A stretch of DNA of 24,533 nucleotides, from positions 1 to 24,533 of the forward strand of contig NZ_JABBDR010000300.1 of NCBI RefSeq assembly GCF_018854495.1, read 5' to 3'. Position numbers and translations under genes: made by a program. Numbering within the stretch: position 1 is the stretch's first letter; every line of letters begins with the position of its first letter. Origin of the DNA: Acidithiobacillus ferruginosus (GTDB lineage: Bacteria; Pseudomonadota; Gammaproteobacteria; Acidithiobacillales; Acidithiobacillaceae). Of this stretch, positions 1,977-21,697 are shown in pieces. A model generated the notes under the pieces. It saw only the letters and a program-made list of their open reading frames with translations, searched no databases and had not been told where the DNA came from.

Positions 1977-2022
1977 ACATCCTCCTGCCAGTCGACCATC
2001 ATGGATGGGGTTACCCAAACGA

Positions 2023-4195: not shown

Positions 4196-4202
4196 GATCT
4201 CC

Positions 4203-7634: not shown

Positions 7635-8728
7635 ACCCTGTCTGCCCCGTCTTTTGTCGCAGTCTTGTGCAGATGCCGCAAGGTCTGAATCTCGCTCTGG
7701 AAATCCACGTAGTGCGGGAGTTTCAGATGCTCTACGAAGCCCGTCGTCTCGACGTTGTCGCAGTGACTAAGGACGAATTGCTCGTTCTGCGCCGGAGAAA
7801 GCGCTTCCTCACCCAGCTCACCGGCCCGCAGCGCCCGATCCACCAGGGCCATGGCGATAGCCTTGCGCTCACTATGGCCGAAGACCAGGCCGTAACCGCG
7901 GGTAAAGGCGGCCTCTTCGGGACTCCTGGCCTGAAACTGATTGATCATCTGGCACTCGGTGACGGTAATGGTCCCGATTTCGATGGAAAACCCCAATTCC
8001 GGTGGAGTGATCTCCACGGTCACCTCCCCCATGCGCAACTCTGCGATAAAGGGGTGATTTTGGCCGTATCCCCTTTGGGTGGAATAGGCCATGGAGAGCA
8101 GGAACCCTTCATCGCCGCGGGCCAGGGACTGTAAGCGTTGCGCACGAGTGGCCGGGAAAAGCAGGGGGTGCTGTGTGATGTCTTGCTGCGTGTTCTCTGC
8201 CGGTGGCGCACAGGCTGCGGCTGGCTCCATCAAACCTTCTTTTTCCAACAGGTCCATCACGCTGGTCATGGGCTCCGGCGGGACTGCGGTTTTGCCAGAC
8301 TCGATTTCGGACTCTGTCTCCAGGCGATCAAAATAGCCGAAGAGTCGGTGAGAATAGTCATAAGTCTGCCCCAGTTGTTGGCCGCCGGGCAAATCCTTGA
8401 AGGCTGCGGAGATACGCCGCTGCACCCGCATGGTATCCATCGCGAGCGGCATGGAATCCAGGAATCGGGTTAGGGTGGCGCGATAGGCACGCAGTAAAAA
8501 TATCGCCTCGATCATGTCGCCCTGCGCCTGAAGCATGGCCTGGGCCGCCAAATTCGCGTCGTAGAGAGAAGCTTCGGCCATGACACGATCCACGCCCAGA
8601 TGCATTTGCCCGCATATTTGCCGGGGAGTGATTTCAGGAGCGTCGGGGTCACCCCGCATCCGTTTGCGCACGAGGCGATGGGCGGCCTGAATGGCGGTGG
8701 AACCTCCCTTGACGGCCACGTAGGACAT
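7631..8728 (-). CDS. phnI: C-P lyase core subunit / ribose triphosphate phosphonate synthase PhnI
   Basis: PhnI, with PhnG and PhnH, attaches the phosphonate to the ribose of ATP with loss of adenine. The 365-residue protein starts MSYVAVKGGSTAI, typical of the family, and contains GMxx-like LLSMAYSTQRGYGQNHPFI and the conserved FGHSERKAIAMALVDRAL block near residues 290-310. Length is close to E. coli PhnI (354). It lies 3 bp after phnH and overlaps phnJ by 4 bp. Confidence 0.95.
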   Translation of the reverse strand: MSYVAVKGGSTAIQAAHRLVRKRMRGDPDAPEITPRQICGQMHLGVDRVMAEASLYDANLAAQAMLQAQGDMIEAIFLLRAYRATLTRFLDSMPLAMDTMRVQRRISAAFKDLPGGQQLGQTYDYSHRLFGYFDRLETESEIESGKTAVPPEPMTSVMDLLEKEGLMEPAAACAPPAENTQQDITQHPLLFPATRAQRLQSLARGDEGFLLSMAYSTQRGYGQNHPFIAELRMGEVTVEITPPELGFSIEIGTITVTECQMINQFQARSPEEAAFTRGYGLVFGHSERKAIAMALVDRALRAGELGEEALSPAQNEQFVLSHCDNVETTGFVEHLKLPHYVDFQSEIQTLRHLHKTATKDGADRV

Positions 8729-8731
8729 CGC

Positions 8732-9274
8732 TCAGGCCTCCTCTATTTCTGTGGTTCTCGGCAGGCAGAGAAAATCCCGGCCACTGCACAATATCAGGTC
8801 GACGCCCCGGGGATAGAGGCTATGGTTATGTTGCGAGAAGGGCAAGAATCCGGCGCCAATCTCAGGCGCAATCGCTCGCGTGCTCTGAATGCCCGGTCCT
8901 CTCAGGATCAGGTCCGGCCCGCCTTGCAGGGTAGGGATCTCGATGATCAGTGTGGCGCTGTTCTCTGGTTCCTCCTCAGTCCCGATGGGAAAAACATGTT
9001 CCTCCCAAGACCAATCCGTCGCGACAGCAAAGACAGCATCTTTGGGAGGGACCACCGGGGCATAACAGCGTGTTCTCAGCCAATGTTCCGCTGCGGCATC
9101 GGGGTACGCCAAGGCAACCGGGGTATCCGCATCCAGCAGGGTATGTAAGATGGTCGTGCAGGCAGGCCGGAAAGGCGATTCCTCCGCGGAGTCCGGCAGC
9201 GTCATGCGTTGCCCTGGGCAGGACATGGCTTCCAGGAGCATCCGAAAGGTCCATTGGCAATCCAATGTCATCAT
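8732..9274 (-). CDS. phnH: C-P lyase core subunit PhnH
   Basis: PhnH is a structural subunit of the PhnGHIJ core complex and needed for triphosphate phosphonate formation. The product has 180 residues, slightly shorter than E. coli PhnH (194) because the N-terminus begins directly at the conserved QWTFRMLLEAMSCPG region. RGPGIQSTRAIAPEI and YPRGVDLILCSG near the C-terminus are family hallmarks. The ATG overlaps the phnG stop by 4 bp. Confidence 0.93.
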   Translation of the reverse strand: MMTLDCQWTFRMLLEAMSCPGQRMTLPDSAEESPFRPACTTILHTLLDADTPVALAYPDAAAEHWLRTRCYAPVVPPKDAVFAVATDWSWEEHVFPIGTEEEPENSATLIIEIPTLQGGPDLILRGPGIQSTRAIAPEIGAGFLPFSQHNHSLYPRGVDLILCSGRDFLCLPRTTEIEEA

Positions 9275-9747
9275 GACCGCATGGTTTCCATTGTGAAGAA
9301 CTGCACACGACTACGTTGATTCTCCTGCCTTGTCTGCGCTTCGCGGGCTGTACGAAGGATCATGAGCGGGACGATGATTCGATCCCATAAGGACGATCGT
9401 CGCTCCGGATGTTGAAGCAGGGCATCCAGTTTGGCGGCGATTTCCGCATGGGCAAGACTATCGCCGAGGACATAGGCCAAACCCATGTAGCCTTGATCGT
9501 CCTGCACCATGCAGCGGGTGACCGTACATTCTCCCAAAGGAAAGGGATCACCCAGACCGCCCATGCGTCCATGGACCATGATCAAGCCGGTTTCCGGCGA
9601 ATGGATGGGAGTAAACTCCGGCCAGCATTCGACACCCGCCGCAGCATCCGCCAAGTCGGAGAACATTGCATGAGCGATCTCCGATATCCAGCGTGCGCGC
9701 ATGCCTGTCAGATCGGTGGGGTTGGTCGATGCTTCATCGAATCTCAT
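9271..9747 (-). CDS. phnG: C-P lyase core subunit PhnG
   Basis: This 158-residue protein is the first gene of the compact phnGHIJKLM run. Conserved segments are ETGLIMVHGRMGGLGDPFPL, GECTVTRCMVQ and, at the C-terminus, RVQFFTMETM, matching the family's SRVDFFTM end. Start at the ATG at 9747, with a modest GGAG eight nt upstream. It sits about 30 nt after the predicted start of a sigma70 promoter with a PhnF-like operator, and 99 bp after the MFS gene on the same strand. Confidence 0.92.
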   Translation of the reverse strand: MRFDEASTNPTDLTGMRARWISEIAHAMFSDLADAAAGVECWPEFTPIHSPETGLIMVHGRMGGLGDPFPLGECTVTRCMVQDDQGYMGLAYVLGDSLAHAEIAAKLDALLQHPERRSSLWDRIIVPLMILRTAREAQTRQENQRSRVQFFTMETMRS

Positions 9748-9770
9748 CGGAACGGCTCCAGATTATCTAG

Positions 9771-9807: not shown

Positions 9808-9846
9808 GTATCGGCATCTGGGATCCTCCTTTGCATTCCTTGAGCG

Positions 9847-11244
9847 CTAATCCGCTATGGCCACAGCCACACGGATATTCGGCCTCGCTACTTCTGAAAC
9901 TTCCTCTAGACTACGGACACCGGGCTCCATATCGCGCCCCAGCAGCAAGGTCACCAGTAAACCCACCAGCGCCGTAGCTGCCAGAATCAGCATCAGCCAA
10001 CCATTACCTACCGCCGCATGCACGCTGGGCAGCAGAAAAACGGAGGTCGTCGCCGCCACGCGGGAACAGGCCGTCGCCAGGCCATGGGCTGAGGCCCGTA
10101 GATCCGTTGGGAAAATCTCTACCGGCAGGAGCCAAGTCGTGGTGGCTGGCCCGAAATTGTTGAAGAAGGTGTACCCGAAGATGGTGACCATGAGCAGCCA
10201 GATTGGGGGATGCATGTAGAGTGCTACCAGACCCAGGACACCCAGAAAAAAAGCATTCAGCGCAAAACCCGCGATTTGCGGAAAAATTCTACCAATCCGA
10301 CGTGTGCTCAGTGCCAGGGACGCGATACCGCACAAAGCGATGAAATCGAAGAGCACATTCCACAGCAAGGCATCCGTGTGAGAGTGGATGCCGAAGCCCT
10401 CCAGCAAGATAGGCAGATACACGATCAAACCATAACCACTGATATCCATCATCATCCAGGGTATGACTACCAACAGTGTGCGCCGTAACCATTGCGGAGC
10501 AAACAAAGTGGCCCAGGCGCGTATCTGGACGAGTTCTGGAGCCTGCCTTTGAAGGGTTTCACGAAGGCTCTGCGCATCCACTTCCGGCGACATACTCTGA
10601 AGCACCTGAATCGCCTCTTCCGGTCGGTTATGCGCGATATACCAGCGTGGGGTCTCAGGAAGGTTACGCCGCAACCAGAGTACTGCCAAAGCCGGAACAG
10701 CCCCACTGATGAACATCCAGCGCCAGGCATTCGGACCGGCCTGCAGCAGCACCAATCCAACGACTGCGGAAACCACAGCGCCGATCATCCACAATGTAAA
10801 TGCCCAAGAGAGTCCTGCTCCTCTCTGCGCTTTGGGCATGAATTCTGCGATGTAGCTCGAACTCAAGGGATAATCCATACCTACACCGACACCCAGAAGA
10901 AAGCGGAAAATGATCAGGGAGGTCACATCCCAAGCAACACCGGAGAGCAAAGCCGCCATAAAAAATGCCGCCACGTCAATCAGGTAAAGCATCTTGCGGC
11001 CAAAAAGATCGGCAATGCGCCCACCCACCAGACCACCGAGTGCCGCGCCTGCCAGCGTCGCCGCGCCTAGCAAGCCGGTAGTCACCGCCGACAAATGCCA
11101 GTCGGGCTTCAGCAAAAGCAGGGCGACAGCGATGATGGACAAATCATAACCATCAAGAAAAATGCCTAAACCAGCGGCCAGAACGATTCGGCGGTGTTGT
11201 TTGTTGATCTTCAGATCATCGAGTAGCGCATGGATTGTGTGCAT
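9847..11244 (-). CDS. MFS transporter, sugar/organophosphate-type, candidate phosphonate importer
   Basis: This 465-residue major-facilitator protein has about 12 hydrophobic segments. The loop 2-3 motif GGRIADLFGRK is present, as are the sugar-porter-like NLPETPRWY after helix 6 and the second-half motif PVEIFPTDLRASAHG. It resembles the metabolite:H+ symporter / sugar porter branch in the inner membrane. The start at 11244 has AAGGA about 8 nt upstream. It begins 38 bp after the HD oxygenase stop and lies 99 bp before phnG, all on one strand. No phnCDE ABC importer is present, so it is the best candidate for phosphonate uptake; substrate is inference. Confidence 0.85.
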   Translation of the reverse strand: MHTIHALLDDLKINKQHRRIVLAAGLGIFLDGYDLSIIAVALLLLKPDWHLSAVTTGLLGAATLAGAALGGLVGGRIADLFGRKMLYLIDVAAFFMAALLSGVAWDVTSLIIFRFLLGVGVGMDYPLSSSYIAEFMPKAQRGAGLSWAFTLWMIGAVVSAVVGLVLLQAGPNAWRWMFISGAVPALAVLWLRRNLPETPRWYIAHNRPEEAIQVLQSMSPEVDAQSLRETLQRQAPELVQIRAWATLFAPQWLRRTLLVVIPWMMMDISGYGLIVYLPILLEGFGIHSHTDALLWNVLFDFIALCGIASLALSTRRIGRIFPQIAGFALNAFFLGVLGLVALYMHPPIWLLMVTIFGYTFFNNFGPATTTWLLPVEIFPTDLRASAHGLATACSRVAATTSVFLLPSVHAAVGNGWLMLILAATALVGLLVTLLLGRDMEPGVRSLEEVSEVARPNIRVAVAIAD

Positions 11245-11282
11245 TGGGATTTCCTTACTCGCTGAAGGGAATGCGATAGTCG

Positions 11283-11882
11283 CTACAGGACGGAAACGCG
11301 GACGCTGCGCATGATATAAGCCATGACATCCTGGAAATCTGGTAGCGGCTTTTCGGGGTCTTTGGCGTGGTCGTCCCAGCGGCGCAGGCGAACGGCATCG
11401 GCGCTAAAGCATGTTTTCTCAAAGGCCGCGCACTCTCCTGCGGACATCGCTCCGCCCTGGAGGACCAGGCTTCGTTGAGAAACCAAGGAGAGGGACGCAT
11501 GATAGCTCGGCTCTGTCGCGCACAAGTAACGTTTTGCTGCAACATGCCAGCGAATCGGTTCTGTTACCGATGGCGGAAACCACTGCCCCAACCAGTTGGC
11601 CCCGATCTCCTCATGTTGGGCGTCGGTGCCACTCTGAAATTTGTCCCGCCCATTCAGATCGATGAGGTGGCCGATATCGTGGAGGAATGCGGCGCTTACC
11701 AGACGCTCCTCCGCACTCGCCGCAATGGCATTCTGCGCACATTGCAACGCATGCCGCGTCTGCGATACAGCTTCGTAACCGTCGTACCATTGCCGACTGC
11801 CAGGGCCCTCGAAAAGCGTGCGAATGTGATCGGCAATAGCCTTGCGTGCGGCGGCGTCATTTTCAGTAGCAGATGCTTCCAT
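11283..11882 (-). CDS. HD-domain phosphonate oxygenase, PhnZ/PbfA-like
   Basis: This 199-residue protein belongs to the mixed-valence di-iron HD oxygenases that oxidatively cleave alpha-hydroxyphosphonates, such as 1-hydroxy-2-aminoethylphosphonate, to phosphate and a carboxylic acid. Metal ligands are visible in order, numbered from the ATG at 11882: His44 (RHALQCA), His68-Asp69 and His72 (AAFLHDIGHL), His90 (QHEEIGANWL), His113 (WHVAAKRYLC, with Lys117 as phosphonate ligand) and Asp170 (RRWDDHAK). The lid glutamate is present as Glu37. The usual lid tyrosine three residues before it is replaced: the run reads YDGYE instead of YxxE. I chose this ATG because GGAGG lies 5 nt upstream; a TTG four codons earlier is possible. 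No PhnY hydroxylase is nearby. The gene follows tonB1 by 78 bp and precedes the MFS gene. Confidence 0.86.
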   Translation of the reverse strand: MEASATENDAAARKAIADHIRTLFEGPGSRQWYDGYEAVSQTRHALQCAQNAIAASAEERLVSAAFLHDIGHLIDLNGRDKFQSGTDAQHEEIGANWLGQWFPPSVTEPIRWHVAAKRYLCATEPSYHASLSLVSQRSLVLQGGAMSAGECAAFEKTCFSADAVRLRRWDDHAKDPEKPLPDFQDVMAYIMRSVRVSVL

Positions 11883-11960
11883 GTCAGCCTCCAAAAACCA
11901 AAAACCAAGGGAACGCCGCCCGCCCGAAAGTGGTCCGGGACCGTGGAGGCGAACTTTTCC

Positions 11961-12689
11961 TTAACTACCGTGAGCGGATAGATGCACCAACACATCGAAC
12001 GTCATGGGATGTTTGGGCATTTTCTTGATAAACGGTGGAAAGCTGGTGTTCTCCACGGTCTTCAAGGCGGCGCGATTAATGGCACCAATACCGCTGCTCT
12101 TGGCAACCTGCGCAGAGAGCAGATGCCCTGACGGCGTCAGGCGAAAGGAAATCACGGCGGTTCCTCCGACATGCATCATCCGGACGGAATCCGGCACGCG
12201 GGCATTGGCCTGTACCCGCGTACGCAGCATGGCCGCGTAGGTGTCTATGGCCGACTGGCGCGCTGCCGGACTTGGTGCGGGTGGCGGTGGTGGCGCGGGC
12301 GGTGTTACCGGCGGCGTGTATACTGGCGCCTGCGGTGCGGACGTTTTGGCGAGCAGGGGTTTGGGCGGCAGCGGATGATGTACCACCGGACGTGGAATCG
12401 GCCTTGGTAGAGGTGGTAGGGGCACTGGTTTCGGAATAGGCTTTGGATGCACCACGGGTTTCGGTGGCGGGGGCACCGGTTTGGGCTTGGGGGGTGCCGG
12501 TTTAATCATGTGAATCGCCATAATCTTGGGCTTTGGTTTGACCGTCACCGGCTGCGACAGATGGGAATATATCAATCCCCCAATCATCAGTGCCTCTATA
12601 ATGGCACCGATTATCAGCGCCCGTCCGAAGTGATCCTTCCTGAACTTCGGGGACTGAACCGGGGAGGAGAGGGAGGTGGCTGCGTTCAT
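11961..12689 (-). CDS. tonB: TonB-family energy transducer (module 1)
   Basis: This 242-residue TonB has a short cytoplasmic tail, one membrane helix (about residues 23-43, ALIIGAIIEALMIGGLIY) and a long periplasmic spacer of Pro-Lys and Pro-Val repeats. The C-terminal TonB fold runs over residues 145-242, with VGGTAVISFRLTPSGHL and the final FDVLVHLS strand. It would couple the inner-membrane proton motive force to outer-membrane receptors. It lies 74 bp after the phosphoesterase gene and is clearly paralogous to tonB2 at 19346, sharing the KDHFGRAL/KEHFGRAL start and the C-terminal fold. No exbD accompanies it. Confidence 0.92.
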   Translation of the reverse strand: MNAATSLSSPVQSPKFRKDHFGRALIIGAIIEALMIGGLIYSHLSQPVTVKPKPKIMAIHMIKPAPPKPKPVPPPPKPVVHPKPIPKPVPLPPLPRPIPRPVVHHPLPPKPLLAKTSAPQAPVYTPPVTPPAPPPPPAPSPAARQSAIDTYAAMLRTRVQANARVPDSVRMMHVGGTAVISFRLTPSGHLLSAQVAKSSGIGAINRAALKTVENTSFPPFIKKMPKHPMTFDVLVHLSAHGS

Positions 12690-12763
12690 ATGTTCTCAAT
12701 GTCCTTGCATAGGCCTGGTCGTGGCACGGAATATTTGGTGATTTTTGCGGTTGCATGGTTGGT

Positions 12764-15652
12764 TCAATGGAGTTTTCCTTCGTTGGCTTCATAGCTGGCG
12801 ATGGTCGCCCCATGGACTTGGGCATAGTGATGTAGGTAGGCCATAAAACGGTCATAGCTCCTGACTCCCTTGCTGGCGATCCACTCCTGCTTCAACTGCT
12901 CTGGCCCGCTGACCTTGAGCAGCGAAGTGGGGGTATAGGCGTTCGCCGCACTAACCGGCGCCAGACGCTGCCCGTGGGGATCGGTATGCGCCTTCAACCA
13001 TTCCGCAGTCAGCATATGACCGGTGGCCCCAGCCTCTCTTCTGAGTAATGTCCGATTGCTGCATTTGCCCGGATTGAAAGACACCGGCACCTGAATCGGA
13101 AGCACCGCCGGCGTCGGCGCGAAATCCGGATGATCTGTCCAGATACCCGCAATGACCGAGGCATTGGCATCCCACTGGGACATGGGCGGCAGACCTAAGG
13201 TCGCTTCAATGGTTTTGACGATATTCACCTGGGAATCCAGATGCGTTTCCAGCATGCCTTTTTTGACCCAGGGGCTGATGACCAGCGCAAAAGTACGATG
13301 ACCATTGATATGATCGGCACCGGACTGCGCATCGTCCTCGGTCAGGAAAATCGCCATATGCTTCCATTGCGGCGTCGTGGACAGGTAATGGATGAATTTG
13401 GCCGTGGCGTAGTCGTTATTGGCTACGTAATAATCTGGCGCGTAATAGCAGGGATCCAAACCTGCGGTGTGGTCATCCGGCATCCAGATATAAATGAAAT
13501 GTGGAAATTTTACGCCCGGATGTGCCTTAAGCCAGTGTTCTGCCAGTCTCTCACGAGCCGTATCCAGAATCATCCGATCCCAATAGGGATAACGGACATC
13601 CATATGCTGCAGTAAACCAGCACGAATGACGCCATCCCGGCGTCGCGTCACGTTCTCGCCAAAATCCTCAAAACGGACATGGTGTTCCAAAAGATCATTA
13701 AACAAATAGAGCTTTTCAGGATAACTGATCCAGGGGTTGGTATGATCTCCCAGCGGCTGATAGATATCATAGGGGTTGTGTGCGCCCTGTGCGGTGGGCT
13801 TGAGGGAAGAGCTACCGCCGGGACCGGCGTTCCAGAGCAAACCGCGGTTGGAATAATATTCGGGCCACAAGCGCTGCACCACGTCGGAATCCGAAGCGCC
13901 ATCGGTCCACTGATGACCCTGTGCGGTGACTTCTCCGTCGGCCATGAAGTTCACGAACAGCGTATAATGACGGGCCAGATTATACAAGTTGGGTAATTCT
14001 TTCTGATTATACAGATCAAAATGTGGATCTGCCCATTTGCCAGCCGCCGTGTAATTCCCTAAATCTTCATCAAAGGTCTTATTCTCACGCAGGATGAATA
14101 CAACATAGTGAATGTGCTTGCGTAGATTGATGGAGGTTTTGACATTTTCCTCGTGACGGGCGCTGCGCTGGGCCGACGTAAAACCATCGTCGTGCAAAGA
14201 CCTCTTGGTCCAATCGGCCAGATGGGCCGGGATTTCCTTGAGAGCCACCTTCTGGATCACCCCGTGCATCATATTGCCGATATACTGCCACTGTAGATTG
14301 GGCCCGGCACCCAGACCCTTGGCACAGCTGATATATAAGGCACCATTCGCCACCGTCAGGCTGGTCGGGTACCAGGCAGTGGGAATCAGGCCCAGACGCT
14401 GGCCCGTTCGGATGTCATACACCGCCACATCATTATTACCGGCGTTGGCGACATAGAGCTTGCCATCGGCAACCGCAAGTCCATCCGGATAGCTGCCGGG
14501 AGGGGCATCGGGATAGGGGCTGTCATCCACCACCCGCAGCGGACGCAAGCTTTGGGTATCGACTTCCACCACCTTGTCGACATTGGCGTCGGCCACAAAG
14601 ACATCGGGACTGTCGGGCACCGCAACCATCGCCGTAGGGTGCACACCCGCCGCTACGGTTGACGGGCTGACCGTTGGCCCGGTGGGAATTTCCCCCAGAA
14701 CCTTCAGGCGTTGCCGGTCCAGCACTACAACGCCGTTACCTGCCCAGTCGCTGACCACCAGCCGCTGCCCGTTATCGGCCAGAGCCACAGCAAAGGGGTA
14801 GGCGCCGACATTGACATATTCGGTCTTGCCGCTGGCGATGTTGATACGTGCCAGACTATTGGAGAGCATCCCCGTCACGTAGAGATGCTTATTCTGGGGA
14901 CCGACGACCACCGAGTCCGGGTAAAAGAGATATTTCTTCTGCTGGTTCCCCTGATACTGATAGGGATACTGATCCTTCGGGAAGGCTTGCCACTGCAAAG
15001 GATACTGATGAATCACCTCCACCTTGCCCTGCACACTGCGCAAAGCCACCACCTGATCAGAATCACCTCCTGTAGCGTAGAAGGTGCCATCCGGACCGGC
15101 AGTAAGCCCTTGGAAAAAGTCGCTATGCGAAATGACAGAACTGGGAATGGCTTTGGGATCGCTCTCGGCGGCAAGCGTGGCTTTGGCCTGGGCAATTTTA
15201 AGTGCAACGCCTTTTTTTGGGATATACACAACGCCTGCCGCACCCGCATGTTGCGGATTGATCGCGATACCGCTACCACCAGGTGTGGCGTAAGCCATCG
15301 CTTTAACGGGTGCCACTTTCGAAAACGCCGCTAGGCGATCTACCCGCCGAAGATCCTTCCCGTCATAAAACGTGATGGTTTGAAAAGGCGTCGCACCATT
15401 AGCCATCACGGCAATACGGTCGCCCTCTGCTGCTACCATTGTGGGGAAATTCGGGGTGCCGTTGATTGCGCCCGTCGGCGTCACTATGCGGCCCGTGGGC
15501 AATATGGCGGTGTAATTTGCTATATTTTGTGAATCGAGTTGCACCGAACTGGAAACATGCCGATTCAGGGGTATGGCCAAGGCAGAAGGTAAGTAACACA
15601 GCGGTCCTGCAAGGATGACGCAGATCACTGCCTTCCCGATCAAATTATTCAT
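12764..15652 (-). CDS. secreted YVTN beta-propeller / PF04185 phosphoesterase fusion
   Basis: This large 962-residue protein has a Sec signal peptide (hydrophobic residues 7-26, cleavage after ALA). A beta-propeller of YVTN/NHL-like repeats covers about residues 60-460; repeated units such as KHLYVTGMLSNSLARINI and KLYVANAGNNDVAVYDI are visible. The C-terminal alkaline-phosphatase-superfamily phosphoesterase domain (PF04185 type) spans about 510-860. Catalytic-site motifs are FILRENKTFDED (Glu523, Asp528), WMPDDHTAG near 724 and TEDDAQSGADHINGHR near 770-785, followed by FALVISPW. The family includes phospholipases C and acid phosphatases that free phosphate outside the cytoplasm. The ATG has AGGAG 8 nt upstream. 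Placement between exbB1 and tonB1 in one operon is unusual. Exact substrate unknown. Confidence 0.9.
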   Translation of the reverse strand: MNNLIGKAVICVILAGPLCYLPSALAIPLNRHVSSSVQLDSQNIANYTAILPTGRIVTPTGAINGTPNFPTMVAAEGDRIAVMANGATPFQTITFYDGKDLRRVDRLAAFSKVAPVKAMAYATPGGSGIAINPQHAGAAGVVYIPKKGVALKIAQAKATLAAESDPKAIPSSVISHSDFFQGLTAGPDGTFYATGGDSDQVVALRSVQGKVEVIHQYPLQWQAFPKDQYPYQYQGNQQKKYLFYPDSVVVGPQNKHLYVTGMLSNSLARINIASGKTEYVNVGAYPFAVALADNGQRLVVSDWAGNGVVVLDRQRLKVLGEIPTGPTVSPSTVAAGVHPTAMVAVPDSPDVFVADANVDKVVEVDTQSLRPLRVVDDSPYPDAPPGSYPDGLAVADGKLYVANAGNNDVAVYDIRTGQRLGLIPTAWYPTSLTVANGALYISCAKGLGAGPNLQWQYIGNMMHGVIQKVALKEIPAHLADWTKRSLHDDGFTSAQRSARHEENVKTSINLRKHIHYVVFILRENKTFDEDLGNYTAAGKWADPHFDLYNQKELPNLYNLARHYTLFVNFMADGEVTAQGHQWTDGASDSDVVQRLWPEYYSNRGLLWNAGPGGSSSLKPTAQGAHNPYDIYQPLGDHTNPWISYPEKLYLFNDLLEHHVRFEDFGENVTRRRDGVIRAGLLQHMDVRYPYWDRMILDTARERLAEHWLKAHPGVKFPHFIYIWMPDDHTAGLDPCYYAPDYYVANNDYATAKFIHYLSTTPQWKHMAIFLTEDDAQSGADHINGHRTFALVISPWVKKGMLETHLDSQVNIVKTIEATLGLPPMSQWDANASVIAGIWTDHPDFAPTPAVLPIQVPVSFNPGKCSNRTLLRREAGATGHMLTAEWLKAHTDPHGQRLAPVSAANAYTPTSLLKVSGPEQLKQEWIASKGVRSYDRFMAYLHHYAQVHGATIASYEANEGKLH

Positions 15653-15685
15653 TCATCCGACTCCTGGAGAAGCCGCGCCGCTCCA

Positions 15686-16378
15686 TCAGCCCGCCCTCGC
15701 TACGGCGGCCGCCATTTTCGGGGCGACCGCCCGCAAAAGGTTCTCCCTGTTATCGGGCATGAGGTGACCGTCCATGCGGTTGAGCAGCATGGTCTTGACC
15801 GAATCCATCGCTAGCAGAATCTGCCGCACCTGACTGTTGAACGCGTTAAAGGCAATCAATCCGAGGATGGCGATGAACAGTCCGGTAGCCGTGGTGACCA
15901 GGGCGTCAGCGACCCCTCCGGTCACCGCCGTCGGCGCATGGCCAGGGGCTGCGAGCACGGAAAACGCATGGAACATACCGATAATGGTTCCAAGGAGACC
16001 CAGCAGTGGCGCCAGGGTAATGATGGTGTCGAGCACCCAGAGCCTGCGGTCCAGTTGCGGCGCCATAATCAGGATGCTCTCCTCCAGGCGACTGGCGAGA
16101 GCATCGCCCTGCACATACCCCGAATGGATCACCGCCGTCTTCAGCAGGGCGGCCTCAGGCAAATCGCCGGCCTCATCCGCAAGGCTCTGCAGGGTTTCCC
16201 GATCCAGGGGGCCGTGCTGGGCGATCTCTCGAACGAATAGCGAGCCGCGCAGGATGGTGCGGCGCAGATACCAGAACCGGTCGACAATAACGCCAAGGGC
16301 GACCACAAGAAGACCGGCCAGTACATAAAGCACGCCGTCAGAGTAATTGGCGAGGTAGATGAGGTAAGCGGTATTCAT
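15686..16378 (-). CDS. exbB: ExbB/TolQ/MotA-family proton-channel protein (module 1)
   Basis: This 230-residue inner-membrane protein has three transmembrane segments: near residues 15-33, 122-140 (TIITLAPLLGLLGTIIGMF, the family signature) and 160-185 (GVADALVTTATGLFIAILG). ExbB pentamers hold two ExbD and drive TonB with the proton gradient. The ATG at 16378 gives the same N-terminus as the paralogue at 18240 (MNxxYLIxLANYSDG); a TTG one codon upstream is possible. AGGAG lies about 10 nt upstream. A Pho-box array and a TATAAT lie further upstream. The next gene is not exbD but the phosphoesterase, 33 bp away. Confidence 0.93.
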   Translation of the reverse strand: MNTAYLIYLANYSDGVLYVLAGLLVVALGVIVDRFWYLRRTILRGSLFVREIAQHGPLDRETLQSLADEAGDLPEAALLKTAVIHSGYVQGDALASRLEESILIMAPQLDRRLWVLDTIITLAPLLGLLGTIIGMFHAFSVLAAPGHAPTAVTGGVADALVTTATGLFIAILGLIAFNAFNSQVRQILLAMDSVKTMLLNRMDGHLMPDNRENLLRAVAPKMAAAVARAG

Positions 16379-16467
16379 CAATATAAGACTCCTGAAATAT
16401 CAGAAGGAGGCGGCGCCAACGCGACGCGCAGAGAACGGAACTGCGCGCCCAAGGTGGCCTTGCAACG

Positions 16468-16494
16468 ATTATAGGCAGACAACCGATCCAGCAA
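16468..16494 (-). promoter_or_regulatory. possible second promoter of exbB1
   Basis: A consensus -10 TATAAT occurs on the minus strand (16473-16468), with TTGCTG at 16494-16489 as a weak -35. The 15-bp spacer is shorter than ideal. It lies between the Pho-box array and the exbB1 start. Confidence 0.35.
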
Positions 16495-16521
16495 GGTCTT
16501 TTGCCTCCTGGAATGGTGCCC

Positions 16522-16576
16522 ATGCTAGCAGCCTCATGTGACAGCAGTGCGTCACGGAGGTGACTTTTTTATGACA
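16522..16576 (-). promoter_or_regulatory. PhoB-box array upstream of exbB1
   Basis: On the minus strand the half-sites TGTCAT (16576-16571), AGTCAC (16565-16560) and TGTCAC (16543-16538) sit in 11-bp register; the third position (16554-16549) is degenerate. The first two form a near-consensus 18-mer, TTGTCATAAAAAAGTCAC. Ten nt after the last unit comes TAGCAT (16527-16522), a weak -10. Confidence 0.68.
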
Positions 16577-16580
16577 ATAT

Positions 16581-16688
16581 GCACGTTTGCCTTCCGCGCT
16601 GGCGAACGTGCTGTGGATGTTCATGTGTGAGCTGTGATAGGATCCCAGACAATAGCGAAGAAGCCCGGTTCTGCCGGGTTTTTTGTCA
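16581..16688 (+). ncRNA. candidate structured RNA or attenuating leader
   Basis: An 11-bp hairpin (16581-16591 with 16601-16611, one G-T pair, 9-nt loop) is followed about 50 nt later by a classic intrinsic terminator (CCCGG, TTCTG loop, CCGGG, then six T) at 16663-16684. The terminator points along the plus strand, but no plus-strand gene lies upstream. The segment may be a small RNA of about 100 nt, or the leader of the DUF3568 lipoprotein gene with an attenuator. No convincing promoter is seen. Confidence 0.3.
16661..16686 (+). terminator. intrinsic terminator without an upstream plus-strand gene
   Basis: AGCCCGG and CCGGGTT flank a TTCTG loop and are followed by TTTTTT, giving a 5-bp GC stem plus two weaker pairs. 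It lies about 40 nt before the lipoprotein gene at 16727. Confidence 0.75.
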
Positions 16689-16726
16689 TTATTTCTCGGT
16701 TTCTTTGACGGAGCTAGGGGGTTGGC

Positions 16727-17239
16727 ATGGCGACGCAACGGCGGTTGGCGTGGTTGGCGGTGGTGGGTGTGGTAGCGGTTCTGCCGCTTGGTGGTTGTGT
16801 GGCGCTTCTCGCGGCGGGGGCTGGTGGTGGGGCCGTGGCCTATGTGGAAAATGGCGGGGTCGCCAATTTCTACGCCTACTATCCGACGTCGGTGACGCGG
16901 GTCAGTGCAGCGTCGAAGGCGGCGTTCGGAGAAATGGGCATTCACTATAACGGCGAAATCCGCAAGAGTCAGTCCGAGTATCTGATCGAGGGTACCACCA
17001 CGGACGGCCAGACCGCCAAGGTAACGCTGACTTCCATGGCCACGGATGTTACCAAGGTCAACATCCGTATCGGGACTTTTGGCGACAAGCCACTATCTTT
17101 GCAGTTCCAGAAGCTGCTTTCGCAACGTCTGGGCATGACCGCCAGTCCTCAGGCTCCGACGGGGGTGGTGTTGCCTCAGGCCAGCAGTCAGCCAGCGGCG
17201 CCACAGCAGCCGCAACAGCAAACCATCCCACTTCAGTAA
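16727..17239 (+). CDS. DUF3568 family lipoprotein
   Basis: This 170-residue protein has a lipoprotein signal peptide with lipobox LGGC (cysteine 24), so it is probably anchored in a membrane facing the periplasm. After a glycine-rich stretch the DUF3568 core (about residues 40-140) contains YYPTSVTRVSAASKAAFGEM and KSQSEYLIEGTTTDGQTAK, and the tail is rich in Gln and Pro. Function is unknown for the family. The ATG follows GGAGCTAGGGGG. It lies between the divergent exbB1 promoter and the PhoB-like regulator, so a place in the phosphate response is plausible but not shown. Confidence 0.85.
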   Translation: MATQRRLAWLAVVGVVAVLPLGGCVALLAAGAGGGAVAYVENGGVANFYAYYPTSVTRVSAASKAAFGEMGIHYNGEIRKSQSEYLIEGTTTDGQTAKVTLTSMATDVTKVNIRIGTFGDKPLSLQFQKLLSQRLGMTASPQAPTGVVLPQASSQPAAPQQPQQQTIPLQ

Positions 17240-17271
17240 TTCACTGATCTTCCATGCCTGGTTTGCGTTAC

Positions 17272-17292
17272 CGGAGACCACTGCGGTCTCCG
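17272..17292 (+). terminator. hairpin after the DUF3568 lipoprotein
   Basis: A perfect 8-bp inverted repeat CGGAGACC / GGTCTCCG encloses ACTGC, 33 bp after the lipoprotein stop. No U-run follows directly, so it is either a weak terminator or a 3'-stabilising hairpin. Confidence 0.45.
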
Positions 17293-17329
17293 TAAATCCT
17301 GTGTTGCAGTACGCATGCCGCTGGGTTTT

Positions 17330-17389
17330 TGTCATAAAATTGTCATTGTAGTTTCATAAAACTGTCATATTGTGGGTATATCCTGTCAT
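17330..17389 (+). promoter_or_regulatory. tandem PhoB boxes and -10 of the PhoB-like regulator gene
   Basis: Four half-sites follow each other at exactly 11-bp steps: TGTCAT (17330), TGTCAT (17341), TTTCAT (17352) and TGTCAT (17363), separated by A/T-rich 5-mers. This equals two complete PhoB boxes in tandem. TATATC at 17377-17382 is a suitable -10. A further TGTCAT at 17384-17389 lies near the transcription start, out of the 11-bp register. Confidence 0.82.
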
Positions 17390-17413
17390 AAGGTCCAGTT
17401 TCGGCAGGAAACC

Positions 17414-18175
17414 ATGATGGCCATACCGCAAGGCAGTACAACGAATAACAATGTGGAAATGGATCCGCTTTATCAGGCACGCATTCTGCTGCTGGCAGAG
17501 ACGGCGCCACCGAGTGGGCTGATATTCCGCCTGCAGGGATCGGGCGCCTTCCTGCGCACGACGAGCGCAATGAATGACGCCTTTCAGCTTGTTGCAGGAT
17601 GGCACCCGGCCCTGCTGATTTTGCACGACTGGTCTGCCCGACTTGCGCCGTGGCTCATGGAATTAAGCGCTTACCCGGCTTGTGCCGGTTTGCCGGTGCT
17701 GGCTATCGGGATGGATGGTGATGCAAACGCCATGTCCGCTCTGGATGCCGGCGCGAGCGCGTATGTCTCGACCCCGTATAGCGAGACGTTGTTGCTGGCG
17801 CAGGCATCGGCGCTGCTGAAAAAAAACCAGCACTGGAAATGCCTCGCAGTAGAGCAGGGGTCGCTGATCCAAGTCAATCCGGGAAGCTGTCGGGTATGGG
17901 TGAATGGTGAAGAAATACGTCTGAGTCGGCGACTATTCCGGTTTCTGCACTATTTGGCATTGCACCCGGATCGGACCTTCTCATCCCGTGAAATTGCCAA
18001 TGTATTGACGGATGGCCGCAGCCTCATCCAGGAAAATTCGGTGGCGGCTCAGGTGCACCGTCTGCGCAACTGTCTGGAAAAGGTTGGTGCGGCGGAGTGG
18101 CTGGAAACCGTGCATGGGTTTGGATATCGCCTGAGTTTGCCGCCGAAAAACGCCATTGATGTAAATTTGTCATAA
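17414..18175 (+). CDS. PhoB/OmpR-like regulator with degenerate receiver domain
   Basis: This 253-residue regulator starts at the ATG at 17414 (AGGAA four nt upstream; the next ATG at 17417 also possible). Residues 22-137 have the outline of a CheY-like receiver, but the key residues are gone. The acidic pair is AE (28-29), and the phospho-Asp position reads LLILHDW, with His71 where Asp is expected and Asp72 one place later. The Thr position is within LAIGMD, and the conserved Lys in KP is Thr120 (STPYS). The C-terminal winged helix (about 150-245) is PhoB-like: recognition helix SVAAQVHRLRNCL keeps two arginines (216 and 218), and TVHGFGYRL is the wing. It probably binds the Pho boxes around it independently of phosphorylation. 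That is inference. The stop codon lies inside the next Pho box. Confidence 0.85.
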   Translation: MMAIPQGSTTNNNVEMDPLYQARILLLAETAPPSGLIFRLQGSGAFLRTTSAMNDAFQLVAGWHPALLILHDWSARLAPWLMELSAYPACAGLPVLAIGMDGDANAMSALDAGASAYVSTPYSETLLLAQASALLKKNQHWKCLAVEQGSLIQVNPGSCRVWVNGEEIRLSRRLFRFLHYLALHPDRTFSSREIANVLTDGRSLIQENSVAAQVHRLRNCLEKVGAAEWLETVHGFGYRLSLPPKNAIDVNLS

Positions 18176-18211
18176 CAGGTTCATAAAACTGTCACATTGA
18201 TTTGCTATGGT
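18168..18211 (+). promoter_or_regulatory. PhoB-box array and -10 of the exbB2-exbD-tonB2 operon
   Basis: Half-sites TGTCAT (18168), GTTCAT (18179) and TGTCAC (18190) keep an 11-bp period. Exactly 10 nt after the last one is the extended -10 TGCTATGGT (hexamer TATGGT 18206-18211), the box-to--10 spacing seen in E. coli Pho promoters such as phoA. The first half-site overlaps the stop codon of the upstream regulator gene. Confidence 0.85.
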
Positions 18212-18239
18212 ACCGCCTCCGGTTAGAGAGGGAGTCCTT

Positions 18240-18923
18240 ATGAACCTGCAATATCTCATTCACCTCGCCAACTATTCAGATGGCGTTCTCTACGTGCTTG
18301 GCGCGCTGTTATTGGTCGAACTGGCCGTTATCGTGGACCGGTTCTGGTTTTTGCGGCGGACCATCCTGCGTGGGCTGATCTTTGTGCATGAACTGGGTAG
18401 CCATGGTCGCCTGGATCGTGACACGCTGAATCAGATGGCTGACGGGGCGAGTGATCTGCCCGAAGCCGCGCTGCTGCGTATGGCTGCCTCCCATCATGGG
18501 CAGGTGAAAGGCGAAGGTCTTGCCAGTCGTCTCGAAGAAAGTGTGCTGGTATTGGCGCCGCAACTGGATCGCCGTCTGTGGTTGCTCGACACTATCATCA
18601 CCTTGGCGCCGCTGCTGGGTTTGTTCGGCACGATTATCGGTATGTTCCACGCCTTTTCGGTGCTGGCCGCTCCGGGACATGCGCCTACGGCGGTCACCGG
18701 CGGTGTGGCTGACGCGTTGGTCGCCACGGCATCTGGCCTGTTTATTGCCATGCTCGGTCTGGTAGCTTTCAATGCCTTCAACAATCAGGTGCGGCAGATT
18801 CTCCTGCAACTGGATTCCGTAAAGACCATGCTGCTCAATCGGATGGACGGTCAACCCATGATCACGCCGGACATCAGTGACCAGCAACGCAGTGAAATGT
18901 TGTCTGTGGCGAGGGCCAGCTGA
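18240..18923 (+). CDS. exbB: ExbB/TolQ/MotA-family proton-channel protein (module 2)
   Basis: This 227-residue protein is a close paralogue of the one at 15686-16378: the stretch from LDTIITLAPLLGL to GGVADALV is almost identical. Three membrane helices are placed as in ExbB. I chose the ATG at 18240, preceded by GAGAGGGAG, over an upstream frame extension that would cross the promoter. It forms the energising channel with the ExbD encoded next; the exbB stop and exbD start overlap (TGATG). Expression is very likely Pho-dependent through the array at 18168-18211. Confidence 0.95.
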   Translation: MNLQYLIHLANYSDGVLYVLGALLLVELAVIVDRFWFLRRTILRGLIFVHELGSHGRLDRDTLNQMADGASDLPEAALLRMAASHHGQVKGEGLASRLEESVLVLAPQLDRRLWLLDTIITLAPLLGLFGTIIGMFHAFSVLAAPGHAPTAVTGGVADALVATASGLFIAMLGLVAFNAFNNQVRQILLQLDSVKTMLLNRMDGQPMITPDISDQQRSEMLSVARAS

Positions 18924-19324
18924 TGGAGCGCCGTTACTTCGAGCAGAAGAAGGGCCGGGTGGAGATCATCCCCATGATCGACATTATGCTCTTCCTGCTG
19001 GTGTTTTTTATCATGATCACGCTGCAAATGATCCCCGACAAAGGGCTGAGCCTGCAGTTGCCCAGGTCCAGCCAGGCGCAGCAGCTTCCGCGCCCGCACT
19101 ACACCATCAATATCGATAAGGATGGATCGGTGGACGTGAAGGGTCATCACTATGATCTGGACGACCTGCAAAAAATGCTCGCCGGTGATGGTAACCCTGC
19201 CAAGACCCAGATCACCATCGCTGCCGATAAGGGCGTGCCTTTTCAGGATTTCGTCCATGTGATGGATCGCTGCCAGAAGGCAGGAGTGAGTGATATCGGG
19301 ATTGCGGCGAAGGCGAGTGGTTAG
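18923..19324 (+). CDS. exbD: ExbD/TolR-family biopolymer transport protein
   Basis: This 133-residue protein has a short cytoplasmic N-terminus, a single membrane helix (about residues 16-38) carrying the essential proton-binding Asp20 in the motif IIPMIDIMLFLLVFF, and a periplasmic domain (residues 60-130; YTINIDKDGSVDVKG and TQITIAADKGVPFQDFVHVMD). Length and layout are typical. It is the only ExbD in the window and may serve both ExbB paralogues. Start overlaps the exbB2 stop by one base. Confidence 0.95.
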   Translation: MERRYFEQKKGRVEIIPMIDIMLFLLVFFIMITLQMIPDKGLSLQLPRSSQAQQLPRPHYTINIDKDGSVDVKGHHYDLDDLQKMLAGDGNPAKTQITIAADKGVPFQDFVHVMDRCQKAGVSDIGIAAKASG

Positions 19325-19345
19325 GAAAAACAAGGAAGGTAATCG

Positions 19346-20065
19346 GTGAATACAATCGTTGGTAACCCAACCTGGACGCCGCCGCCACTGAATACGGATA
19401 AAGAGCATTTTGGCCGGGCATTGTTGGTCGGTGCAGTATTGGAGGCGTTGCTGGTGGGCGGATTGATCTGGGTGGGAAGTAATACGCCGCCCCCCAAGCC
19501 GGTCGTAAAGAAAATTATTGCAATCCATATGGTGCAGCCGGTCCCCCCCAAGCCGAAGCCGGTACCGCCGCCGCCAAAGCCGATGGTGCACCCCAAACCA
19601 CTGCCGCGTCCAGTTCCGTTGCCGAAACCAGTGGTGCATCATGTGCCTGTACCTAAGCCGCTGATAGCCAAAACACCGTTGCCTCTCGCGCCGGTGGCAC
19701 CGCCTAGGCCGCCGGTGGTCCTGCCGCCGCCGCCACCTCCGCCGCCTGCGCCCAGCATGGCCGCACGTCAGGTGGCGTTAGCCGAATACGCAGCCATGGT
19801 GCGGGCCCAGGTCCAGGCGGATGCCCATGTGCCCGAAGCTATCCGCCTGATGCATTTAAGCGGCACCGCGGTCATCACATTCCGGCTTGCGCCTTCGGGT
19901 CGATTGCAGTGGGCAAAAGTTTCCCGGTCCAGCGGGGCGGGGCCCATCGATAGGGCGGCATTGAAGTCAGTGGAAGAAGGAGAGTATCCGCCCTTCTCCA
20001 AAGATATGCCAAAGCATGCCACCAATTTTACGGTAGAGGTGCATTTGTCGGGACGCGCTTCCTAG
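19346..20065 (+). CDS. tonB: TonB-family energy transducer (module 2)
   Basis: This 239-residue TonB starts with GTG at 19346, supported by AAGGAAGG at 19332-19339. A membrane helix (about residues 25-44, ALLVGAVLEALLVGGLIWVG) leads to a long Pro-Lys/Pro-Val/Pro-Leu periplasmic spacer, then the globular TonB domain (about 145-239; LSGTAVITFRLAPSGRL, VEEGEYPPF, FTVEVHLSG). It is paralogous to tonB1 at 11961-12689 over its whole length. It completes a contiguous ExbB-ExbD-TonB set. No TonB-dependent receptor gene adjoins it; the only trace is the remnant at 22420. Confidence 0.94.
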   Translation: MNTIVGNPTWTPPPLNTDKEHFGRALLVGAVLEALLVGGLIWVGSNTPPPKPVVKKIIAIHMVQPVPPKPKPVPPPPKPMVHPKPLPRPVPLPKPVVHHVPVPKPLIAKTPLPLAPVAPPRPPVVLPPPPPPPPAPSMAARQVALAEYAAMVRAQVQADAHVPEAIRLMHLSGTAVITFRLAPSGRLQWAKVSRSSGAGPIDRAALKSVEEGEYPPFSKDMPKHATNFTVEVHLSGRAS

Positions 20066-20092
20066 TATCCGCCGGCTATATGGGCGGATACT
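20064..20092 (+). other. intercistronic stem-loop between tonB2 and the phospholipase gene
   Basis: A perfect 10-bp inverted repeat AGTATCCGCC / GGCGGATACT with a 9-nt loop begins within the tonB2 stop codon. No T-run follows, so it may protect the upstream transcript or lower read-through rather than terminate fully. Confidence 0.5.
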
Positions 20093-20125
20093 TACCAATC
20101 TTTAATGGAATCAGGAGTTTTTTTC

Positions 20126-21697
20126 ATGGAGCGACAGAATCGCCGGCAGTTTTTGAAGCGGCTGGGGCTGGGGAGTGGTGCAGTTGTCGCTGCTCCGCAT
20201 CTGCTGGGGGTGGCACGTGCGGCAGGCGTCAGCGGAGAAAATCTCCTGCGCCAGAAGATCGAGCATGTGGTGGTGATCTTTCAGGAAAATCGTAGTTTTG
20301 ATCATTACTTCGGTACTTTTCAGCCGAAAAACGGGCAGCAGGTCGTCAACCTGCTGGATGGGCAGGGACAGTTGGATTCGCGTTTCCTCGGTTTACAGAA
20401 AAACCCTGCGGGCATCGCTTATGATAATCTGCCGTTACCTACGGAAATTCCGGGTTTCCAGAATGTGCAATTGCCGAATCAGCCTTTTCACATGGCGCCC
20501 TATATTCCGGTCAGGGGCAATGTGCACTGGGATCCTGCGCATCGCTTTTTCCGTATGATGGCGGAAGTGCATAACGGCAAAATGGATCGCTTCGTGGCCC
20601 TGGCGGGCGGCAGCAAAACCCTTTTGTCGCGGGATGAATTCAGGAAAATGAGCCCCGAGCAGATCGCCTTCGATCTGGCCCGCCCCAGCGGCCCGGTGCT
20701 AGGATATTATACCGGTGAAGATTTGCCCTTCTATCATCAGGTGGCGCACCAGTACACGCTCTTTGATCATTTCTTTCAGGCCATGAGCGGTGGCAGCACG
20801 GGTAATGCGCTTTATCTGGCGGCCGCCCGTTCCTGTATCCATCCCCATGCACCCAGGGAGGTCTGTGCGCCCTTCGATCCGAAGGAGGCGGGTTTGGAGC
20901 ACCGCTTCTTTGATCTGCCCTATGACCACCAAAAAGTGCTGGTCAACGACCTGCCGCCGGTACAGGGACCGACCCACGCGGATGCCGTGAAAGCGCTGAA
21001 GATATCTCCGCCGCCGGAGGCGCAGACCTACGACAATATCGGTGACCGTCTGGATGGCGCCAGAGTATCCTGGGCCTGGTATAACGAAAACTGGAACCGG
21101 GTGAAGCCATGGGCGCTCAAGACCGCGTTTGGTCCCGGCGATGGCTCGGCGGTGATCGACACGGGCCAGTTGTATGTGGCCCACCATAATCCCTTCCAGT
21201 ACTACCCGCGCTGGCCAGAATATGTGAAGAACGGTCGTATGCGCGATAGCGAAGACTTTCTCGCCGATGCCCGTGCCGGCAAGCTGCCCGGTGTTTCCTT
21301 TGTCAGGGCCAGCGCCGCCCATGACGAACACCCGGCTGACTGCGCACCAGCCTACGGTATGGAATGGGTGGAGCAACTGGTGCGCGCCGCTGCGGATGGT
21401 CCGGCCTGGGACAAAACCGCCATCTTCATTACCTATGACGAAGGTGGTGGCTTTTGGGATTCGCTGCCGCCTAAAGTGGTGGACGACTATGGATTTGGCA
21501 CCCGTATCCCGGCCCTGCTCATCAGCCCCTGGGCGCGGCAAGGGTTGGTGGATCACCACCTCGCCAGCACGGCGAGCATCCTCAAATTCATCGAAACTCG
21601 TTTCGGTCTGCAACCCCTCAACCAACGCGACGCCGACGCGTATGATCTGATGGGGGCTTTTGACTGGGATCAGCGGCCCCAAGGTTTCCGCATCTGA
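20126..21697 (+). CDS. Tat-exported phospholipase C / acid-phosphatase-like PF04185 phosphoesterase
   Basis: This 523-residue enzyme begins with a twin-arginine signal (NRRQFLKRLGLG, hydrophobic core to about residue 35, ending VARA), so it is exported folded. The phosphoesterase domain starts with VVIFQENRSFDHYFGT (Glu54, Asp59), the hallmark of the phospholipase C/AcpA family. It continues with FDHFFQAMSGGSTGNAL, VSWAWYNENW, VSFVRASAAHDEHPADC and FITYDEGGGFWD near residues 435-446, then ALLISPWARQG. The enzyme would release phosphate or phosphorylated head groups from organic phosphates outside the cytoplasm. I chose the ATG at 20126 (AGGAG 8 nt upstream) over one at 20105. It is a distant relative of the fusion at 12764 and ends the tonB2 operon. 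Confidence 0.92.
   Translation: MERQNRRQFLKRLGLGSGAVVAAPHLLGVARAAGVSGENLLRQKIEHVVVIFQENRSFDHYFGTFQPKNGQQVVNLLDGQGQLDSRFLGLQKNPAGIAYDNLPLPTEIPGFQNVQLPNQPFHMAPYIPVRGNVHWDPAHRFFRMMAEVHNGKMDRFVALAGGSKTLLSRDEFRKMSPEQIAFDLARPSGPVLGYYTGEDLPFYHQVAHQYTLFDHFFQAMSGGSTGNALYLAAARSCIHPHAPREVCAPFDPKEAGLEHRFFDLPYDHQKVLVNDLPPVQGPTHADAVKALKISPPPEAQTYDNIGDRLDGARVSWAWYNENWNRVKPWALKTAFGPGDGSAVIDTGQLYVAHHNPFQYYPRWPEYVKNGRMRDSEDFLADARAGKLPGVSFVRASAAHDEHPADCAPAYGMEWVEQLVRAAADGPAWDKTAIFITYDEGGGFWDSLPPKVVDDYGFGTRIPALLISPWARQGLVDHHLASTASILKFIETRFGLQPLNQRDADAYDLMGAFDWDQRPQGFRI

Follow-up and report, generated by a model that had tools for sequence, protein, structure and literature searches.

Gene clusters that bring together a TonB receptor, ExbBD-TonB, AcpA/PhoD phosphatases, PhnG-M, an MFS permease, a PhoB-type regulator and a 'surface layer protein' have been described in Acidithiobacillus and Leptospirillum, and the parts of the report consulted here interpret them as serving, under control by Fur, the uptake of Fe(III) associated with phosphate (Osorio et al. 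2008, PMC2631029). The term Pho box is absent from its main text. In A. ferrooxidans, the tonB genes are numbered AFE2268 and 2275, the exbB genes 2270 and 2273, exbD 2269 and the phn genes 2278-86, and the C-P lyase operon of Acidithiobacillus was noted to be without the usual phosphonate permease (PMC2621215, in excerpt). Excerpts of both reports also raise the puzzle of why siderophore uptake should be so well provided for in habitats that abound in iron (PMC2621215, PMC2631029). Genes for TonB, ExbB and ExbD, which we do not equate with the present cluster, were raised in electroautotrophic growth according to an excerpt of another report (PMC10974421).

Two further systems bear comparison with the locus described here. 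In Sphingobium, an organophosphate hydrolase forms a complex with ExbB/ExbD/TonB (PMC7142613, in excerpt), and there, as here, a Tat-exported phosphoesterase is tied to a TonB system, phosphorus being obtained from organophosphates; however, the Sphingobium enzyme belongs to another family, and in our case the link is a genomic one with receptors. In Caulobacter, the exported protein ElpS, produced under phosphate starvation and associated with phosphatase activity, co-occurs with the TonB-dependent receptor CC0171 (PMC2996285, in excerpt), which again resembles the situation here. However, ElpS is a lipoprotein released by type II secretion and was suggested not to be a phosphatase itself, and the excerpt describes no linked ExbB/TonB.

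The window, by which we mean the whole analysed stretch of 24,533 nucleotides, is contig C224 of the Acidithiobacillus ferruginosus genome (G000; 3,009,601 bases in 309 contigs), hereafter its own genome. In common with the clusters of PMC2631029, as far as the consulted parts describe them, it encodes ExbBD-TonB, acid/alkaline phosphatases, PhnG-M, an MFS permease, a PhoB-type regulator and probably the 'surface layer protein' as well. A preliminary description of this DNA, made from its letters, knew of no named system of such composition, but like clusters and their gene content had already been published in 2008. The link to Pho control, the likely location of the partner receptors and a three-part cassette discussed below were not met in the literature looked at, part of which was seen in excerpt. 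A literature search, conducted mostly at title level, found no paper that connects Pho boxes with the TonB receptors of this group, none on Acidithiobacillus together with the Pho box and none on a bifunctional YncE family protein.

Gene organization and the two phosphoesterases

Open reading frames and profile matches confirmed the two gene sets first recognized in the window, exbB1-PE1-tonB1 on the minus strand and exbB2-exbD-tonB2-PE2 on the plus strand (Table 1). Two PF01618, one PF02472 and two PF03544 domains scored above cut-off, and the components of a TonB-ExbB-ExbD system are therewith present. Module 1 is without exbD and runs on into the PhnZ-like gene, the MFS permease gene and phnG to phnF, all of which lie beyond the region covered by the preliminary description. 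The gaps between exbB1, PE1, tonB1, the PhnZ-like gene, the MFS gene and phnG are 33, 74, 66, 38 and 99 bp, respectively, and no gap in the whole run exceeds 99 bp; this tight spacing is compatible with co-transcription of the module 1 genes. Among the C-P lyase genes, PhnI, PhnJ, DUF1045 and the GntR/UTRA protein (PhnF) were identified by Pfam, the names of PhnG, H, K, L and M come from position and sequence reading outside the profile scan, and the frame at 2980-3534, named PhnN, had no Pfam match. The MFS permease scored below the cut-offs of TIGR00895 and TIGR00887.

Table 1. Predicted genes and Pho-box-like sites of the window, in order of position
Feature	Positions	Strand	Basis
C-P lyase operon: PhnG, H, I, J, K, L, M, DUF1045, PhnN, PhnF	2231..9747	-	Pfam/position
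MFS permease	9847..11244	-	nearest solved structures 9kmq and 7sp5, phosphate transporters
PhnZ-like HD-domain oxygenase, phosphonate degradation	11283..11894	-	TIGR03276, 256.8 bits (cut-off 214.6)
tonB1	11961..12689	-	PF03544, 39.6 bits
PE1, PF04185 protein, 962 aa	12764..15652	-	open frame and profile match
exbB1 (MotA/TolQ/ExbB)	15686..16381	-	PF01618, 96.5 bits
Pho-box-like repeat (pair of half-sites) upstream of exbB1	16560..16577	-	consensus match
DUF3568 protein, between modules	16727..17239	+	PF12092, 62.3 bits
Four Pho half-sites (one weaker), 11-bp steps, upstream of regulator	17329..17368	+	consensus match
OmpR/PhoB-type regulator, DNA-binding domain	17372..18175	+	PF00486 only
Three Pho half-sites (one weaker), 11-bp steps, upstream of exbB2	18167..18195	+	2 mismatches to consensus
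exbB2	18207..18923	+	PF01618, 92.6 bits
exbD, sole one found in the window	18923..19324	+	PF02472, 106.6 bits
tonB2	19346..20065	+	PF03544, 37.3 bits
PE2, twin-arginine PF04185 phosphoesterase	20105..21697	+	PF04185, 255.7 bits

The two modules had been described as paralogous, and this holds for exbB1 and exbB2 (78% identity) and for tonB1 and tonB2 (59%) but not for the enzymes, which share 28% identity over 169 aa, nor for exbD, present in one module only. The single divergent control region that had been proposed for both was not borne out, as the DUF3568 gene and the regulator gene stand between the modules and exbB1, the regulator and exbB2 have Pho-like sites of their own. No receiver domain (PF00072) was recognized in the regulator of the window even at E 0.1. 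The regulators of C281, a receptor-bearing contig of the same genome, and of L045, a related module, were likewise without PF00072 at E 0.1, and the control regulator L037 has it; these counts omit the open frame of L047, which matched no family and is probably a wrong frame. This orphan regulator without a recognizable receiver domain is therefore probably not switched by phosphorylation.

Inspection of the signals by eye agreed with the proposal that each module encodes an exported PF04185 enzyme by a different route, the signal being Sec-like in PE1 and of the twin-arginine type (RRQFLK) in PE2. PE1 combines this signal with a YncE-like beta-propeller (about residues 59-471) and a PF04185 phosphoesterase domain scoring 36.4 bits, compared with 255.7 bits for PE2 and a cut-off of 23. 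Residues of the PF04185 domain that we take, from knowledge of the family, to be of catalytic type are conserved in 66-67 of 67 sequences (PE1 alone counted). A structure model of PE1 built from 67 sequences reached a pLDDT of 81.1, an earlier one from 15 sequences being poor (pLDDT 55.0) and set aside, and in the fold search all of the matches listed cover the propeller and not the phosphoesterase domain. The 'surface layer protein' of PMC2631029 (in excerpt) is probably PE1, the propeller of which gave a match to 1l0q, a surface layer protein from an archaeon. As for PE2, its designation as a phospholipase appears unsafe: its top model is the acid phosphatase TIGR03397 (217.9, cut-off 362.75), it falls short of the phosphocholine-specific phospholipase C model TIGR03396 (178.1, cut-off 580.25), and its solved relatives, 9gy2 and 2d1g, include the acid phosphatase AcpA as well as phospholipases C. 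Both proteins share the PF04185 domain with the AcpA/phospholipase C superfamily (2d1g, 9gy2), from which PE1 differs by its added N-terminal propeller and PE2 by scoring under both NCBIfam cut-offs. We infer that PE1 and PE2 are phosphate-ester-cleaving enzymes.

Relatives of the module and the missing receptor

A search with PE1 had hits in 32 of 57 genomes, a count that includes the own genome as well as short and PE2-type matches. Uniqueness to this strain, which had been named as grounds for refutation, failed to apply: genome G014 has the whole gene order of the window at 90-100% protein identity, and an intact exbB-exbD-receptor(s)-PE1-tonB module was found at four loci in three genomes (L039 and L044 in G006, L043 in G015 and L045 in G007). 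A like module with one receptor and an exbD split over two frames is present at L042 of G013. A chance neighbourhood was ruled out by this recurrence across genomes.

No TonB-dependent receptor is encoded in the window, and the preliminary description had seen the phosphoesterase as occupying the place of one. The relatives speak against replacement, as they carry the receptor between exbD and PE1. The window aligned to L042 from 7130 to 15412 and then from 15675 to 16439, and between these blocks L042 has an insert of about 3 kb, containing a receptor and exbD, that is absent in the window. Because L042 carries this segment, the adjacency of exbB1 and PE1 is, judged from the alignment, due to loss of about 3 kb with exbD and the receptor. 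Such receptor loss does not figure in the consulted parts of the PMC2631029 account.

The own genome encodes four TonB-dependent receptors, a pair on contig C281 and one each on C193 and C120. C281 has the order regulator, receptor, receptor, then cytochrome b561; its receptors are 95% and 89% identical to those of the intact module L045, to which it aligns minus the exbB-exbD and PE1-tonB stretches. Module 1 of the window and the C281 remnants thus plausibly complement each other. Identity to the L045 counterparts is just 72-73% for PE1 and tonB1 of the window, which suggests that two copies of the module lost complementary parts and not that a single module was split; G006 retains two copies (L039 and L044). 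We infer that the C281 receptors are the partners of the energisers in the window. The receptors match heme and siderophore models weakly, and no solved structure was matched by the one receptor of 812 aa used as a query, whose ligand is therefore not guessable in that way.

Pho-box-like sites at the modules and receptors

The Pho consensus was of the E. coli textbook type, and the pattern was picked after viewing the window; with it, the window gave six matches at no more than three mismatches, four of them at module promoters, against 0.40 expected, and none of 100 shuffled windows had six. The half-sites upstream of the regulator are of the type TTGTCAT/CTGTCAT. When a 17-bp pattern with at most one mismatch was applied to the own genome, it yielded 22 sites, compared with 5 for the backward pattern. 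Four of the 22 are the window sites 16560 and 17330-17352, two precede a pstS-like gene (PBP_like_2) that is followed by a permease gene, one precedes an OprD-family porin gene, and one (105942) precedes the C281 regulator by about 200 bp. The shared-Pho-box route to a partner receptor, suggested in the preliminary description, led to all four receptors of the genome, each with sites within 200 bp upstream (C193:19912; C120:49710 and 49732; C281:102320 and 104894), the chance of such a site at one receptor being about 0.0016 (p, for 22 sites in 3.0 Mb). For the receptor at C281:104292, the scoring used in the receptor survey below gave a minus-strand site only. The remaining 9 of the 22 sites stand at none of these genes and are near the chance number. 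Judged by predicted sites, the promoters of the locus resemble those of a Pho regulon.

The survey extended to receptor upstream regions in 23 genomes, with the 24 of 175 receptors from genomes G024-G028 outside its scope and 16 of the other 151 loci dropped for want of an open frame of the set size over the match, which left 135. A Pho-like site was present in 57 of these 135 regions, compared with 19 for the backward pattern and 2 inside the gene; at a stricter score, the corresponding counts were 33, 5 and 0. Site orientation agreed with gene orientation in 81 of 93 cases. At the fetched loci of the bacterial family, 14 of 34 receptor genes had a Pho-like site (backward, 2), as did 5 of 160 other genes (backward, 1).

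Phosphorus and iron as possible cargo

The reading that we favour, with modest confidence, is a Pho-controlled, TonB-dependent system for scavenging organic phosphorus under phosphate starvation. As the sites suggest, phosphate shortage would cause PhoB and/or the linked PhoB-type regulator to activate both energiser sets via the Pho boxes. ExbB1/ExbB2, the single linked ExbD and TonB1/TonB2 would then energise receptors encoded elsewhere, presumably the C281 pair and possibly those on C193 and C120, which would carry phosphoesters, phosphonates or their metal complexes across the outer membrane. In the periplasm, the imported compounds would be hydrolysed by PE1, exported by Sec, and PE2, exported by Tat, if the two act as their family would predict; inward transport of phosphate or of the organic product would fall to the MFS permease, and PhnZ/C-P lyase would receive the phosphonates. 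If true, a phosphorus role under Pho control would answer the puzzle of TonB receptors in iron-rich acid, and the supply of substrate to a C-P lyase operon that has no phosphonate permease of the usual kind might be accounted for as well. Of the dedicated system envisaged in the preliminary description, the link between TonB energisers and exported phosphoesterases stands, recurring in relatives under Pho-like sites, and the substitution of a receptor by the enzyme falls. Its alternative, that TonB energy exports or anchors the enzyme, gains no advantage over receptor-mediated import from any of the present observations. The defined promoters and receptors can now be put to the test in a biomining organism.

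Iron uptake, as modelled by Osorio et al. (2008), would have the phosphatases free phosphate as an iron chelator, or process Fe-phosphate complexes, and Fe(III) complexes enter by way of the receptors. The receptors' weak matches to siderophore/heme families are in line with this model, the cytochrome b561 gene adjoining the C281 pair could belong to iron metabolism, and the consulted parts of PMC2631029 report predicted Fur boxes in such clusters and experiments that place one PhoB-family regulator under Fur control. Fur-like scores of at least 13/19 were also found in 37 of the 135 receptor upstream regions, compared with 16 of 135 for the backward pattern, and weak Fur sites may stand beside the Pho sites at receptor promoters, where they may place the receptors under joint iron control. 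However, the top Fur-like scores were just 14/19 (8 of 135 against 2 of 135 backward), the excess of Pho-like sites at the stricter score is clearer, and the C-P lyase, PhnZ and MFS genes stand in line with module 1. The window itself had no Fur consensus match at up to three mismatches, which is a weak test as 0.00 were expected by chance. On these grounds we regard iron uptake as an unlikely function of the system.

The same observations bear on a mixed substrate, in which phosphonates or phosphoesters would pass through the receptors as metal complexes, so that iron and phosphorus are obtained together under joint PhoB/Fur control. Pho-like sites, weak Fur-like scores in excess of their control, the cytochrome b561 neighbour and, on general knowledge, the iron-rich acid niche are what such a system might present, but with the window devoid of Fur matches at that threshold we rate it somewhat less probable still than uptake of iron. 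Lastly, the enzyme might ride the TonB complex itself, with ExbB/ExbD/TonB binding and placing the phosphoesterase and no receptor of its own being needed. The exbB1-PE1-tonB1 order, in which neither a receptor nor exbD stands between the genes, prompts this thought, and the four-component organophosphate hydrolase complex of Sphingobium (PMC7142613, in excerpt) offers a precedent. Yet receptors are retained between exbD and PE1 in relatives, no gene accompanies PE1 more often than the receptor, and PE1 and PE2 match PF04185 and not the phosphotriesterase family, which makes this arrangement most improbable.

Genes recurring around PE1

Phosphorus scavenging under Pho control may reach further than the window. 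We put forward tentatively, as a possibility somewhat short of even, that TonB transport here and largely in the bacterial family serves the Pho regulon at the outer membrane and is not chiefly concerned with iron, with receptors, energisers and regulators all standing under Pho boxes, and that a widespread cassette of receptor, propeller phosphoesterase and MFS permease imports and digests organic phosphorus. Were this so, many 'siderophore receptors' of Acidithiobacillus would be phosphorus receptors.

Blind clustering of the genes within 4 kb of PE1 at 94 loci returned the TonB-dependent receptor at 39 of them, the MFS permease at 20 and TonB at 9, the next cluster counting 6. In 33 instances the receptor neighbour was upstream of PE1 and on its strand, and in 15 the MFS neighbour was downstream and likewise on the same strand. 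The family set consisted of 29 loci from 21 genomes, some of which gave two loci, and left unfetched such matches as G007:C52, G015:C33, G018:C3, G020:C55 and contig-edge fragments; the non-family set consisted of 65 loci, 15 of 80 having been removed as duplicates of family genomes, and other duplicates may remain in it.

Within the family, a receptor lies no more than 5 kb from PE1 in 20 of the 25 loci with enough flank, against 0.028 expected per locus, although the loci are related and a binomial value therefore overstates the evidence. Co-occurrence of ExbB/TonB with PF04185 neighbours, proposed as a check in the preliminary description, was found, TonB/ExbB/ExbD genes lying within 8 kb of PE1 in 12 of 25 family loci; an MFS gene directly downstream of PE1 was seen in 1 of 29 only. 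Beyond the family, the receptor is directly upstream of PE1 in 8 of 47 loci and no more than 5 kb away in 10 of 28, TonB genes are near PE1 in 1 of 28, and the MFS gene is directly downstream in 9 of 48, mostly in Planctomycetota. PE1 is thus strongly linked to the receptor inside the family and less so beyond, and its link to the MFS permease is strongest outside the family. Distant PE1 relatives (L067-L073) were kept outside these neighbour counts; four of them, L069 and L071-L073, about 24-25% identical to PE1, also stand among receptors and exbD/tonB genes.

Second TonB cluster and porin gene in the own genome

The genome that contains the window (G000) carries a second cluster (locus L036, G000:C193:11001-31000), in which a perfect Pho pattern is followed, in order, by genes for a TonB-dependent receptor, ExbB, ExbD, TonB and a PhoD-like phosphatase. 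Upstream of it lies a stretch resembling PE2, the twin-arginine PF04185 phosphoesterase; this stretch is perhaps a remnant. A perfect Pho pattern was also located immediately 5′ of an OprD-family porin gene (L155, G000:C297), whose product is possibly a phosphate or organophosphate porin.

Regulators and neighbors of the clusters

The PhoB/OmpR-type regulators of the window and of loci L035 (G000) and L045 (G007) may act independently of phosphorylation, as suggested by their domain content: no receiver domain was detected in these three, and the control regulator (L037:12843-13502) does have one. In L035, L045 and L039 (G006), a cytochrome b561 gene, whose product could serve in iron reduction, borders the module on the side of its receptor or of tonB.

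Features and their coordinates
Feature	Locus	Position	Remark
Second cluster	L036	9047-14560	
PE2-like stretch	L036	8441-8605	
OprD-family porin	L155	1035-2452	
PhoB/OmpR-type regulator	window	17372-18175	DNA-binding domain present
PhoB/OmpR-type regulator	L035	11928-12746	DNA-binding domain present
PhoB/OmpR-type regulator	L045	18448-19266	DNA-binding domain present
Cytochrome b561	L035	6119-6739	Pfam-checked
Cytochrome b561	L039	6196-6774	
Cytochrome b561	L045	6811-7386	Pfam-checked
PhnZ-type oxygenase	window	11283-11894	above TIGR03276 cut-off
Receptor pair	L169	6589-11433	second receptor interrupted
Region past phnF	window	1-2230	

Phosphonate genes, G014 and the enzyme-permease pair

The PhnZ-type oxygenase gene is in line with the C-P lyase operon, placing two phosphonate routes side by side. 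Past phnF, the window contains tRNA-Leu, a histidine phosphatase and an epimerase gene, where G014, the genome sharing its gene order, has two more TonB-dependent receptors (L165). In the G014 receptor pair (L169), the insertion interrupting the second receptor holds an open frame that, on reading, appears to encode a putative transposase.

In L121-L154, from records titled Planctomycetota, an MFS permease lies directly 3′ of relatives of PE1, the propeller phosphoesterase, and no receptor was found among the detected genes beside this pair. The core of the receptor-PE1-permease cassette may be the enzyme-permease pair.
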